In this document: piece after piece, positions 39,026-54,928 of the stretch
How the letters are laid out: every line of letters begins with the position of its first letter
How positions within the stretch are numbered: the stretch's first letter is position 1
Origin: Sinomicrobium weinanense
GTDB lineage: Bacteria; Bacteroidota; Bacteroidia; Flavobacteriales; Flavobacteriaceae
Direction of reading: 5' to 3'
NCBI RefSeq assembly: GCF_018863395.1
Contig: NZ_JAHKRR010000001.1
Span: 558,001 to 622,000 of the forward strand
Length of the DNA stretch: 64,000 nt
Translations under genes and position numbers: made by a program
Notes under the pieces: model-generated
Seen by the model: only the letters and a program-made list of their open reading frames with translations
Databases searched by the model: none
Told to the model about the DNA's origin: nothing

Positions 39026-40567
39026 TCAGTCTATTTCCGGATTGGCCTGTATTTCCGTCTGGGGTACAGGTAGGTAAGCGTGTTGTTCGCTTCTGAAATT
39101 GGTTCTTCCGGCCTTGCTCATGGCGCTGTCGAGCATGCCCCACCGGCGAAGGTCAAAAAAGCGGGTGGATTCTAATGTGAACTCCATCGTACGTTCGTGA
39201 ATGATGTGTTCTTTAACCTCTTCTTTGGAGCTGGCCGTAACGGGAGGCATGTTTCCGTGAATGTCCCTTACCTGGTTAATGAGGTTTACAGCCTCTGCCG
39301 TATTCCCTGTTTCGTTCAGTGTTTCGGCATACATCAACAAGACGTCGGCATATCTCATAAGCACTACATTGAGTCCTATATAGCCGTTGTCTTCGTCATA
39401 ATCGGGCAGCCATTTCCTGAAATAGGCATGGTTTTCATGGAGGTCCTTGTACTGGGTCAGCATAAGTGTATCCCAGGTGCTTCCCCGCATTTCGCTGGTG
39501 TTGGGGTCATTGTAGAACGGGTCCCTGAAATAGAGGGTGTTGTAGAGCCTGTTGTCATACCGTCCGTCGTTTGCTACGGGGCCTTCCTTTTTCATTTCTT
39601 CCACCAGCCCCATGGTGGCCTCGATACCTCCCCAGCCGCCAAAGGACCAGTCGGCAATAAAGGCGTGCAGTATAGTGGCGTTCCAGGAATTGGCATCCCC
39701 GGCTTTAAACTGGAGTTCGAAGACAGATTCGCTGCTGTTTTCATTATGTCCGTTAAAAAGGCTTTGATAATCGGGTTCCAGCGTATAGGTGCCTGCATCG
39801 ACAATTTGTTTAAAAGCAGCCGCAGCATTTTCAAACTCATTTCCGGAAGCAGAGGTCGGGTCCCCCGCTTTGTGCAGATAGGCTTTTCCCAGGTAGGCCA
39901 GGGCAGCCCCCCTGGTGGCCCTTCCGTAGTTTTCGGGCGATATTTCTGCGGGCAATGCTTCTGCCGCATGCTGAAAATCGGTGAGGATGGATTCCCATAC
40001 TTCCGGCCGTTCGGCCAGGGGGCGGTCCAGGGTCTCATAGGTGATCATTTCTTCCCTCAATACGATCTGTTTATAGAGCGTAAGCAATTTAAAGTGATAA
40101 TAGCCTCTCAAAAAGGTAGCTTCTCCTATGATCCTTTTTTTATCGGCATCAGAAATTTTATCGGGAGCTATTTCCTCTATTTTGGTGAGCACCTGGTTCG
40201 CATAATTAAGGCCTTTGTAATTGGTGGACCACAGTATATTGATAAAAGTATGGGCATTGTCGTATGTAAAATTGAACATGGACATCCAGTGGGCATAATT
40301 GGAAGCATCCGGCCCGGGAAGGGCATAGTCGGACCTGAAATATTCCACTACCGGGCGGCCTTCCTGCCAGCCGTCCCAGAACTCGCTCCTGGACTCGAGC
40401 TCCGAATAGGCGGCTACCAGCCCGGATTCGGCGTCATTGACATCCCGCCAATACGATTCGGAGGTCAGCTTGTCCGGTGACTTTTCTTCGAGAAAATCTT
40501 CATCATTACACGAGGTGGCGAATATGATCACCAATAAAATGGAAAGGGATTTATATAGTGTTTTCAT
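39026..40567 (-). CDS. SusD-type surface lipoprotein (second locus)
   Basis: This encodes 513 residues. The signal peptide ends at the lipobox ATSC (Cys20), followed by the family start NDEDFLEEKSPDKLTSESYWRD. Helical repeats include FLRGYYHFKLLTLYKQIVL and GAALAYLGKAYLHKAG. The C-terminal signature is HIIHERTMEFTLESTRFFDLRRWGML, and it ends YLPVPQTEIQANPEI. It is the substrate-binding partner of the SusC encoded 11 bases upstream. The neighbouring GH63, GH2 and hydroxylysine-type enzymes suggest glycopeptides from collagen-like proteins as substrate. That is inference. Confidence 0.95.
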   Translation of the reverse strand: MKTLYKSLSILLVIIFATSCNDEDFLEEKSPDKLTSESYWRDVNDAESGLVAAYSELESRSEFWDGWQEGRPVVEYFRSDYALPGPDASNYAHWMSMFNFTYDNAHTFINILWSTNYKGLNYANQVLTKIEEIAPDKISDADKKRIIGEATFLRGYYHFKLLTLYKQIVLREEMITYETLDRPLAERPEVWESILTDFQHAAEALPAEISPENYGRATRGAALAYLGKAYLHKAGDPTSASGNEFENAAAAFKQIVDAGTYTLEPDYQSLFNGHNENSSESVFELQFKAGDANSWNATILHAFIADWSFGGWGGIEATMGLVEEMKKEGPVANDGRYDNRLYNTLYFRDPFYNDPNTSEMRGSTWDTLMLTQYKDLHENHAYFRKWLPDYDEDNGYIGLNVVLMRYADVLLMYAETLNETGNTAEAVNLINQVRDIHGNMPPVTASSKEEVKEHIIHERTMEFTLESTRFFDLRRWGMLDSAMSKAGRTNFRSEQHAYLPVPQTEIQANPEID

Positions 40568-40578
40568 TGTAACGGTCT

Positions 40579-51775: not shown

Positions 51776-54700
51776 ATGAAAAAACTATACGTATTGTTCG
51801 CTGCTGCTGCATTATGGCAGGGATGCGGCAAACAACAACTCGAAAAAGTACCGGAACAAACCTATCATTACGATCACCGTATTTTCGAAGAGCACAAATT
51901 ACCGCCTAGGGCCACTTTTTTCGGGCTGGAATCCTCCGGGGTTGACCGAAAAGAAGATTCCCGGAGATTTTTAAGCCTCAACGGAACGTGGAAATTTCAC
52001 TATGTAAAGGACCCGAAACAACGCCCGGACCATTTTCAGCATGTCAGTTATGACGATTCTGACTGGGACAGTATCACGGTTCCCGCTAACTGGGAAACCG
52101 AAGGATATGGACATCCCATTTACCTGGATGAACGCTATCCGTTTACTACCCAATGGCCCGACGCACCTACGGATTACAACCCGGTAGGGACTTACAGAAA
52201 AACGATAGAACTGGACGGGGATATGCTCAGCGAAGATGTGATCCTGCATTTCGAAGCCGCTAAATCTGCCATGTATGTATACATAAACGGAAAGTTCGTA
52301 GGCTATTCACAGGGCAGCAAAACCCCGGCCGAATTTAATATCACCCCATACGTGCACAAGGGAAAAAATCTCATAGCACTGCAAATGTTCCGCTGGAGTG
52401 ATGCCAGTTACCTGGAAAGCCAGGATATGCTCCGCATGAGCGGAATAGAACGCGGCGTATACATCTATACGCGACCGGAAGTCTTTATCACAGATTATCA
52501 CGCTTATACCAATCTCGAGGATAATTATGCCAATGGTATTTTCAGAAGTAAGGTCATCCTGAACAATACCACTGAAAAAGATGCCGTGAGGAGAGTTACG
52601 GTAACATTACGGGACGGAGATGATACGGAAGTTTTCAGGGGGTCCGGACTACTGACAATACCTCCTGGAACGGATATGGAATTTAAGGCTGAAAAGGTCA
52701 TTCTGCAGGTAAAACAGTGGTCTGCAGAAGTCCCCAACCTGTACGACCTTGTGATTGCCGTGGAAGACGAAAAGGATAAAACCCATAACCAGTATATAAA
52801 AACATATACGGGATTTAAACGGGTGGAGGTAAAGAACAGCCAGTTACTGGTCAACGGCCGGCCTGTTTATATTCGCGGCGTGGACCGGCATGAAACAGAC
52901 CCGCTTACAGGACATGTGGTGTCCCGGGAGACCATGGAAAAGGACATTCGCTTAATGAAACAAAACAATATCAATGCCGTAAGGAGTTCACATTACCCGA
53001 ACGATCCCTACTGGCTGGAACTTTGTGATAAATACGGCTTGTACGTAGTGGATGAAGCCAATATAGAAAGTCATCCCCTGGCCATACACGAAGAGACCCA
53101 GATCGGCAATGAAATGAGCTGGCTGCCCGCACATATGATGCGTACACAGCGCATGTATTACAGGGACCGCAACCATGTGAGCATTTATTCCTGGTCTTTG
53201 GGGAACGAAGCCGGGGAAGGGGAGATCTTCAGGACCACTTACAAATGGTTGAAGGAACACGACGATAACCGGATCGTACAGTACGAACCAGCAGGGAAAG
53301 GGGATTACACAGACATTTACTGCCCTATGTATCCCAAACCGGAATACCTCATAAAACACGGAAGATCCGGCTCCGGAAAACCGGGTATCATGATCGAATA
53401 TGCCCATGCCATGGGAAACTCGGTAGGGAATTTACAGGACTATTGGGATATTGTAGAAAAGTACCCGAACCTTCAGGGCGGTTTTATATGGGACTGGGTA
53501 GACCAGAGCCTGGAGTATAAAGACAAGAACGGAAAGCCGTATTTTGCTTATGGCCACGACTTTCATCCCGATCTGCCTACGGACGGTAATTTCCTGAACA
53601 ACGGCCTGGTTGACCCCTATCGTAACCCGCACCCGCACCTTACCGAAGTAAAGAAAGTATACGAACCCGTACAGTTCCGTTATCTCGGAAACGGAAGGGT
53701 AGAGGTGGAGAACAAAAACTTTTTTGCGTCGTTGTCCGATAAGACGATCTCCTGGAAAGTCCTGGCGGACGGGATTCCCGTAACAACGGGAGAATATGCC
53801 GGAACAGGGATACTCCCGCAGCAAAAAGAAAAAATAAGCCTGGACGGATTCCCGGAAAACCCGGACAGGGATAAAGAGTATATACTCGAAGTAAGCCTGT
53901 TGCAAAAGACGGGGACAGCCCTTATACCTGAAGGTTATGAGATTGCCTGGGATCAGTTTATACTTCAGAAAGGGAGGTATATTTCCACGGACTACAAGAA
54001 AATGGAAGGCCTGGAAATTATCGAAGAAAAAGACGGTTTCGAGATAAAAAATCCGCAGGTAGCCCTGAAGATAGATAAAGAAACGGGAGAGATTGTAGAT
54101 TGGCATTACGGAGGTTCACTGATAACTGCAACCCCGGTTAAACCGAATTTCTGGCGCGCCCCGACGGATAACGACCTCGGGAACGATATGCAGACATGGG
54201 CAAAAATATGGCAGGATGCTACTTACAATTATAAAGCCAGCCTGGTGACCCCTCCGAAGCGTGTAAATGACGGGGTCCGCTTTAAAGTGGCCTATGCATT
54301 GCCCGGCGATGAAGCTGAGGTAACAGTGGTTTACCTGTTGCGGAAAGACGGGGCACTCAAAGTGGATTACACGTTCAGTCCCTTAAAAAAAGACCTTCCG
54401 AATATCCCCAGGATCGGGATGTATATGACATTGTCCCGGGTGTATTCACAGGTTAGATGGTATGGCAACGGCCCAGAAGAAAGTTATTGGGACCGGAAAA
54501 CCGGCGTTAAGACCGGCGTTTATACTTCCACGGTAACCGAAGGTTTTCACAGGTATATGCGTCCCCAGGAAACCGGGAACAAAACCGGTGTACGATGGAT
54601 GGAAGTCGCCTCTCCCAACCTGGTTTTAAGGGTAGAGGGATTCCCCGATCTTTTAAACGCAAGTACCTGGCCTTTTTCGATGAAAGAGATTGATTTTATC

Positions 54701-54928
54701 GCAGGAAAAGACGGGGCCGCTTCCGCTTCCGGGCTTGTACCGGTAACTTCAAAACACGGAGCGGACATAAAGATCGGAAATACCGTACAGTGGAACATCG
54801 ACCTCCTCCAGATGGGTGTCGGTGGCGATAATTCATGGGGGGCAAAGGTACATGACGAATATACTGTAAAAGCCACACATCATACATATTCTTTCCTGAT
54901 AACTCCTTTACCGGAAAGCAGGGAATAG
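51776..54928 (+). CDS. Lipoprotein GH2 beta-galactosidase (LacZ-type)
   Basis: This encodes 1050 residues from ATG 51776. The frame is open from a GTG at 51713, but that overlaps an inverted repeat and would bury the signal peptide. The lipobox is WQGC (Cys17). The domain order is the GH2 jelly-roll ([19 protein letters not shown]), Ig-like domain, TIM barrel with acid/base Glu478 (SLGNEAGEG) and nucleophile Glu541 ([12 protein letters not shown]), then the LacZ-type small domain ([32 protein letters not shown]). It removes beta-linked galactose. In this locus the likely bond is galactose-beta-O-hydroxylysine after the glucose is gone. It is probably periplasmic or at the inner face of the outer membrane. 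Confidence 0.93.

Follow-up and report, generated by a model that had tools for sequence, protein, structure and literature searches.

Collagen ranks among the most plentiful proteins of animals, and its hallmark modification is glycosylated hydroxylysine. Animals reportedly handle hydroxylysine with a kinase (HYKK) and an ammoniophospholyase (PHYKPL), described by Veiga-da-Cunha in 2012 in a study that is also said to have noted bacterial fusions. Here we analyzed a stretch of 64,000 nucleotides from Sinomicrobium weinanense (Bacteroidota; Flavobacteriaceae; contig NZ_JAHKRR010000001.1, positions 558,001 to 622,000), hereafter the window. It contains a locus of the polysaccharide utilization locus (PUL) type that very probably (about 0.85 in our estimate) serves the use of the collagen glycan Glc-alpha1,2-Gal-beta-O-5-hydroxylysine (glucosyl-galactosyl-hydroxylysine, Glc-Gal-Hyl), either free or on short peptides.

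In animals, the enzyme acting on Glc-alpha1,2-Gal-Hyl is PGGHG, a member of glycoside hydrolase family 65 (GH65) (PMC8626586, PMC11012932). The steps proposed here resemble the animal PGGHG/HYKK/PHYKPL route in that an alpha-1,2-glucosidase is followed by a hydroxylysine kinase and an ammoniophospholyase. They differ in three respects: the glucosidase belongs to GH63 instead of GH65; kinase and lyase are parts of one protein, in most cases separated by an M23 peptidase domain; and the genes are grouped in a SusCD locus that has a regulator of its own. The GH63 enzyme has its fold and catalytic Asp/Glu in common with Escherichia coli YgjK, which has been solved with Glc-alpha1,2-Gal, but is only 27% identical to it in structural alignment and scores below the cut-off of the YgjK equivalog model (NF007525; 382.5 bits, cut-off 625). 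Like other Bacteroidota PULs, the locus has SusC, SusD, a sigma/anti-sigma pair of the extracytoplasmic function (ECF) type and lipoprotein glycosidases; unlike them, it also holds the catabolism of an amino-acid aglycone, and its proposed target is a protein-linked disaccharide rather than a polysaccharide. No bacterial locus or pathway for the collagen glycan or for hydroxylysine appeared in the excerpts given by the listed matches of the open-licence full-text literature.

Organization of the locus

The locus consists of the following genes.

39026..40567, minus strand: SusD-like glycan-binding lipoprotein (Pfam SusD_RagB 118.6 bits, SusD-like_3 71.9 bits)
40579..43980, minus strand: SusC/RagA TonB-dependent outer-membrane transporter (TIGR04056, 846.6 bits, cut-off 368)
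44072..45199, minus strand: FecR-type anti-sigma factor (Pfam FecR, FecR_C)
45468..46037, minus strand: ECF sigma factor, Bacteroidetes type (TIGR02985, 142.4 bits, cut-off 126)
46568..48607, plus strand: GH63 (YgjK-like) alpha-glucosidase, lipoprotein with Cys19 (Pfam MGH1-like_GH, YgjK_N, Glyco_hydro_63)
48634..51663, plus strand: fusion of APH, M23 and class III pyridoxal phosphate (PLP) phospholyase domains, 1009 residues (NF004799; Pfam APH, M23, Aminotran_3)
51713..54928, plus strand: LacZ-type GH2 beta-galactosidase with a lipoprotein-type N-terminus (five Pfam GH2/LacZ domains over cut-off)

An earlier note, made from the sequence alone, had described this gene content and order; the open reading frames lie at these positions, and Pfam and NCBIfam confirmed their families. 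The minus-strand half (SusD, SusC, FecR, ECF sigma) and the plus-strand half (GH63, fusion, GH2) diverge across 530 bp. GH63 and fusion are separated by 26 bp, and fusion and GH2 by 49 bp when counted to the GTG start of GH2, for which an internal ATG at 51776 is the likelier start. As judged from Pfam and NCBIfam matches, SusC beside SusD, glycoside hydrolases and a regulator are all present, which is the make-up of a Bacteroidota PUL. An FMN-dependent dehydrogenase at 55018-56166 was excluded from the locus, as it was in none of the listed recurrent neighbor clusters.

Predicted activities of the plus-strand proteins

The GH63 protein matched PF03200 (46.1 bits, cut-off 22.4) and PF22422 (238.7 bits, cut-off 27), and both catalytic residues were present, with the general acid D456 and general base E649 aligned with D501 and E727 of YgjK; the acid stretch was aligned only in a sub-threshold segment, via the shared WESGxD motif. 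Sequence and structure-model searches both returned E. coli YgjK as the closest solved relatives, and the top Protein Data Bank (PDB) match of the model was 3w7w, in which YgjK is bound to 2-O-alpha-glucopyranosyl-galactopyranose, the collagen disaccharide. The AlphaFold model had a predicted local distance difference test score (pLDDT) of 78.5 overall, falling below 50 at 430-479 and around 650-659. Since these acid and base loops were poorly modeled, no comparison of the +1 subsite with YgjK was made. The lipoprotein cysteine Cys19 was invariant in 40 of 40 aligned rows, with the strict lipobox pattern in only 33 of 52. We propose that this enzyme would remove the alpha-1,2-glucose from Glc-Gal-Hyl. 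For the subsequent removal of galactose from Gal-Hyl, the proposed enzyme is the GH2 protein, which reached 996.7 bits against NF052611 (LacZ-type beta-galactosidase; cut-off 999) and in which the catalytic glutamates E499 and E562 were placed by motif.

The fusion matched NF004799/PRK06148 over its full length (1137.6 bits, cut-off 1128, residues 8-1004), a family that is already catalogued, named only "hypothetical protein" and given no function or glycosidase context. Pfam located APH at 27-247, M23 at 439-535 and Aminotran_3 at 603-1001, in agreement with the APH-M23-AT3 description in the earlier note; we set the bounds at about 1-395 (APH kinase), 396-575 (M23) and 576-1009 (phospholyase). 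The kinase domain has the APH fold (Pfam APH 96.1 bits, cut-off 23.2). The M23 domain carries the HxxxD and HxH metal-binding motif, and its metal ligands H440, D444, H494, H530 and H532 were kept in 116 of 116 fusions, the window's included. Weak matches of this domain include the glycyl-glycine endopeptidases LytM and lysostaphin, a likeness that would suit a Hyl-Gly bond and proves nothing. The third domain belongs to the ETNPPL/PHYKPL branch of the class III PLP fold, with the PLP lysine K849 placed by motif. The N-terminus has no obvious signal peptide, and the protein is probably cytoplasmic. Its structure model (pLDDT 78; pTM 0.62) confirmed the phospholyase fold only, and because its confidence was moderate we make no claim on domain arrangement. 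We propose that the fusion acts as a hydroxylysine kinase and 5-phosphohydroxylysine ammoniophospholyase.

The nearest solved relative of the lyase domain is human ETNPPL (6tor; E 9.2e-136; 50% identity in Foldseek), an ethanolamine-phosphate phospho-lyase. This likeness speaks for a rival explanation in which the fusion degrades ethanolamine through the kinase and a phosphoethanolamine lyase to acetaldehyde, and the locus serves a glycan or glycolipid decorated with ethanolamine. Since ETNPPL and PHYKPL are closely related paralogs, likeness to one leaves the other possible. The proposal of PHYKPL-type activity, on 5-phosphohydroxylysine over phosphoethanolamine, instead draws on the gene context.

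Recurrent company of the fusion

We examined both flanks, at most 10 kb each, of the best 80 of 290 confirmed fusion relatives (hereafter the named set), a sample biased to close relatives, in which contigs ending inside the flank were scored as "absent". Genes were called by our own greedy open-reading-frame script, score thresholds were chosen by us, and one representative per neighbor family was identified; counts over 81 loci add the window to the named set. GH63 was found within 10 kb of the fusion in 52/80 loci, GH2 in 47/80 and both in 45/80. The earlier note had said that a consistent lack of the glycosidases in homologous loci would refute its proposal; these counts show no such lack. 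The gene order recurs as well: GH63 stood directly upstream in 44/81 fusion loci and GH2 directly downstream in 45/81, and the GH63-fusion-GH2 arrangement is therefore not a chance juxtaposition. Among the 52 GH63-bearing named loci, which span 16 named genera (plus others), GH63 was directly upstream in 43, at a gap of -59 to 27 bp that was mostly about 0. SusC and SusD lay within 10 kb of the fusion in 36/80, and the window's SusD cluster was represented in 36/81. Genes for galactose use were also found nearby, namely galactokinase (GalK; 14/80), GalT (11/80) and GalM (15/80).

We also analyzed an even draw of 395 Bacteroidota genomes, in which mostly the first two (kinase-lyase) or three (GH63) candidates were scored per genome. 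The kinase-lyase family was present in 51/395 genomes at E <= 1e-100, with 27 over the curated cut-off, and a profile of the window's GH63 clade matched 11/395. Six genomes had GH63 matches above 900 bits (G198, the window's own G000, G285, G025, G245 and G324); all were among the 51, and in each of them GH63 and the matched kinase-lyase were no more than about 4 kb apart. The remaining five matches (435-705 bits) came from genomes outside the 51. Four of the six best GH63 genomes are represented by loci of a single genus, g2 (L161, L163, L164 and L165), which combine GH63 with a GH42 beta-galactosidase in the place of GH2 and a kinase-lyase without M23 (GH42 was confirmed by Pfam for L161 and L164 and by profile for L163 and L165). 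SusC and SusD were directly upstream in three of these four loci.

These arrangements bear on a second rival explanation, that the locus targets another Glc-alpha-Gal-beta glycan for its galactose and that the fusion, handling an unrelated amino alcohol, is a neighbor by accident. YgjK-like GH63 and LacZ-type GH2 are indeed broad families, and a distant GH63 relative (G230, L179) stands beside GH2 and SusCD without a recognized kinase-lyase. However, the kinase-lyase is nested between both glycosidases with gaps near zero, and the pairing persists with GH42 for GH2 and without M23, so we regard this explanation as very improbable.

Variants of the arrangement were found as well. In genomes G274 and G092, genes for SusC, SusD, GH2, a small protein, a LysA-type decarboxylase and GH63 stand in a row, and the Pfam/NCBIfam scan identified the small gene of G092 as an APH-family kinase. 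Because both genomes hold a second LysA elsewhere, the LysA of the locus looks specialized, possibly for hydroxylysine decarboxylation. In the SusCD loci L176 (6781-8847) and L177 (6752-8906), the small gene (an APH-family kinase in L177) and the LysA-type decarboxylase lie between GH2 and GH63, an arrangement that may represent a second, decarboxylating solution for hydroxylysine. In family f38 (L120, L121, L123, L124, L126 and L129), the kinase-M23-lyase adjoins DHDPS-family and galactokinase-family genes without GH63, these neighbors being identified by Pfam for L121 only. In Arenibacter (L041, L043, L045, L047-L049, L051 and L055), fusion copies lacking a GH63 neighbor have a different context, with a GSDH-like gene and an uncharacterized gene on the opposite strand close by; A. 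arenosicollis has one fusion copy of each kind (L043 and L046).

When neighbors were mapped on a quick, simple-model tree of 134 lyase domains, the minimum numbers of changes, which are inflated by short contigs, were 18 for GH63, 19 for beta-galactosidase, 9 for the hydroxyproline (Hyp) set and 2 for M23. Of 11 independent pairs, GH63 and beta-galactosidase changed in the same direction in about 8 and in the opposite direction in 0.1 (median p 0.0078, range 0.0039-0.070). Because the two change together on the tree, the glycosidase link was probably gained or lost repeatedly, as a pair.

Neighbors for hydroxylysine products and hydroxyproline

In L165, one stretch holds genes for L-piperidine-6-carboxylate (P6C) dehydrogenase, HGLS, GH63, GH42, the kinase-lyase and a D-2-hydroxyglutarate-dehydrogenase-like protein. 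Its upstream genes encode an AsnC/Lrp regulator, a 2-oxoadipate dioxygenase (Pfam HGLS) and the P6C dehydrogenase, which scored over the equivalog cut-off (NF050084, 826 bits, cut-off 730). The D-2-hydroxyglutarate-dehydrogenase-like gene follows in three of the four g2 loci; its assignment comes solely from the best match, at 582 bits against a cut-off of 1350. Second copies of P6C dehydrogenase were found within about 6 kb of GH63 in G025, G245 and G324. In Zhouia amylolytica (L038), the best match in the named search, an HGLS gene adjoins SusD. HGLS and the kinase-lyase shared a contig, at most 15 kb apart, in G025, G130, G234 and G324, and not in G126 and G304; HGLS is informative only by its place.

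The P6C dehydrogenase, the 2-oxoadipate dioxygenase and the D-2-hydroxyglutarate-dehydrogenase-like protein fit hydroxylysine as the fusion's substrate, not ethanolamine, whose breakdown would require no such enzymes. The earlier note had named use of ethanolamine by the fusion as a finding that would overturn its proposal, and this is disfavored, as neighbors in several loci would act on the hydroxylysine product or on 3- or 4-hydroxyproline. Moreover, no ethanolamine gene was recognized among the identified recurrent neighbor families, some families being unscanned. In favor of ethanolamine, the P6C dehydrogenase expected for hydroxylysine was not found in two fusion genomes, G242 and G356, both of which have the fusion beside Hyp genes. 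With neighbors predicted to act on C6 hydroxylysine products and hydroxyprolines, we consider the ethanolamine explanation improbable.

Genes for hydroxyproline use form a further part of the company. In the named set, a proline-racemase-fold enzyme was near the fusion in 16/80 loci, P2C reductase in 15/80, D-amino acid dehydrogenase in 15/80, a sodium:solute symporter in 16/80 and Xaa-Pro aminopeptidase in 16/80, and GH63 co-occurred with at least two Hyp genes in 14/80. L073, L095, L102 and L115 share the order P2C reductase, 3-Hyp-dehydratase-like, GH63 and fusion, followed on the opposite strand by Xaa-Pro aminopeptidase, D-amino acid dehydrogenase and 4-Hyp-epimerase-like genes. We then compared the catalytic pair in the 35 racemase-fold proteins that scored >380 across all loci. 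The pair was Cys/Thr in 15/15 proteins beside P2C reductase, which we take to be the signature of trans-3-hydroxy-L-proline dehydratase, and Cys/Cys in 13/13 beside D-amino acid dehydrogenase, presumably that of 4-hydroxyproline epimerase; the other seven comprised five Cys/Cys and two Cys/Thr. A single representative was scanned; its nearest model was that of 3-Hyp dehydratase, with a score under the curated cut-off (364, cut-off 540). Across the even draw, PF05544 was present in 41/51 fusion genomes versus 57/344 others, and HGLS in 6/51 versus 13/344 (p 0.025), a signal so weak that HGLS was rejected as a phylum-wide companion; the Fisher figures for both ignore relatedness, and the genome lists were hand-copied. 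In nine genomes, PF05544 and the fusion shared a contig and were no more than about 10 kb apart; eight of these genomes belong to f30, a family of another class, and one (G029) to the window's family. In Tenacibaculum (L083, L100 and L101; T. piscium and T. finnmarkense), the fusion sits inside a Hyp gene set, and L083 alone has GH63 as well.

Co-location of Hyp and galactose genes with the fusion would also be accounted for if the substrate were a hydroxyproline-rich plant or algal glycoprotein of the extensin or arabinogalactan-protein (AGP) type. We consider this extremely improbable, as it leaves unexplained the amino-alcohol kinase-lyase, the P6C and 2-oxoadipate genes and the Cys/Thr enzyme of the 3-hydroxyproline dehydratase type. 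More tentatively, and with considerable doubt, the collagen-glycan assignment may be widened to an island consuming Glc-Gal-hydroxylysine together with 3- and 4-hydroxyproline, in which M23 would be a hydroxylysyl-glycine peptidase and peptidase, kinase and lyase would work in series on one polypeptide, taking Hyl peptides to 2-aminoadipate semialdehyde.

Observations against the collagen-glycan assignment

Several observations weigh against the collagen-glycan assignment, among them the sub-cut-off YgjK score, the likeness to ETNPPL and the two genomes lacking P6C dehydrogenase described above. A PDB sequence search with the kinase domain at E 0.01 gave no match. In the named set, 23/80 fusions had no GH63, GH2, GalK or Hyp set nearby (among them are L070, L109 and L110, whose contigs are shorter than 10 kb, and L105, where a racemase fragment scored slightly below threshold), and HGLS was near only 2/80. 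P6C dehydrogenase was present in 18/20 genomes tested, so that its presence alone is little informative. GH63 and Hyp linkage, tried as co-varying traits, gave no signal in independent pairs. M9 collagenase was rejected as a companion marker, being found in 1/395 genomes (G356, a fusion genome).

The even draw also narrows the distribution of the full company. We took 58 neighborhoods and dropped four without a called kinase or lyase (L132, L158, L172 and L173), leaving 54, the window not included. GH63 was near the fusion in 5/54, beta-galactosidase in 6/54 (2 GH2, 4 GH42), the racemase in 9/54 and HGLS in 3/54, and at the chosen thresholds P2C reductase, GalT, GalM and Xaa-Pro aminopeptidase were each near in 0/54. 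Based on these counts, the full company is mainly a feature of the window's family, Flavobacteriaceae.

The window's own genome has one kinase-lyase over cut-off, one P6C dehydrogenase (G000:C30) and a galactokinase, and another contig (L181) carries a hydroxyproline set of D-amino acid dehydrogenase, epimerase-type racemase, KGSA dehydrogenase and DHDPS-family genes. HGLS was not found in this genome at E <= 1e-20, so the last pathway steps there must differ or be missing. Nor was M9 collagenase found at E <= 1e-15; the opening of collagen would thus have to fall to different proteases or to other organisms.

Proposed route

Gene content, gene order, conserved catalytic residues and recurrent company were observed directly, and we infer from them the substrates, direction of flow, compartments and role of M23. 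SusCD would bind and import Glc-Gal-Hyl, free or peptide-borne, after which the lipoprotein GH63 would take off glucose and the lipoprotein GH2 galactose, yielding hydroxylysine or a Hyl peptide. Once this product has entered the cytoplasm, the fusion's kinase domain would phosphorylate its 5-hydroxyl, and the PLP domain would eliminate phosphate and ammonia to give 2-aminoadipate 6-semialdehyde, by the chemistry that HYKK and PHYKPL use in animals. In some other loci, P6C dehydrogenase, HglS and D-2-hydroxyglutarate dehydrogenase would carry the product to 2-oxoglutarate, so that the route would run from hydroxylysine through 2-aminoadipate semialdehyde, 2-aminoadipate, 2-oxoadipate and D-2-hydroxyglutarate to 2-oxoglutarate (no search was made for the transaminase), and in some the Leloir genes would handle galactose. 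The gene context strongly supports the substrate proposed in the earlier note, beyond that note's original argument, and this proposal stands well ahead of its rivals.

Other genes in the window

An amidohydrolase gene at 37359-38795 adjoins SusD; its best NCBIfam match is Xaa-Pro dipeptidase (105 bits, cut-off 500), and X-Pro cleavage by its product would suit collagen peptides. At 5792-15291, a second SusC/SusD-sized pair, recognized by size only, is followed by M16-type and S8 subtilase genes, and this region resembles a peptide-utilization locus more than a glycan locus. At 34642-36487, a gene for an AraC-family regulator overlaps one of the arginine-deiminase fold, and an MFS transporter gene precedes both.

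Significance

If the assignment is correct, it would assign a role to the NF004799 fusions, catalogued as "hypothetical", and a physiological substrate to a YgjK-like GH63 clade, and the enzymes would be candidates for use in mapping collagen glycans or in their removal. Several relatives bear species names that suggest an origin from sponges, sea cucumbers, sea urchins or fish. The locus would then be the bacterial equivalent of the hydroxylysine route in animals, and its presence in a genome would mark a bacterium that feeds on animal matrix.

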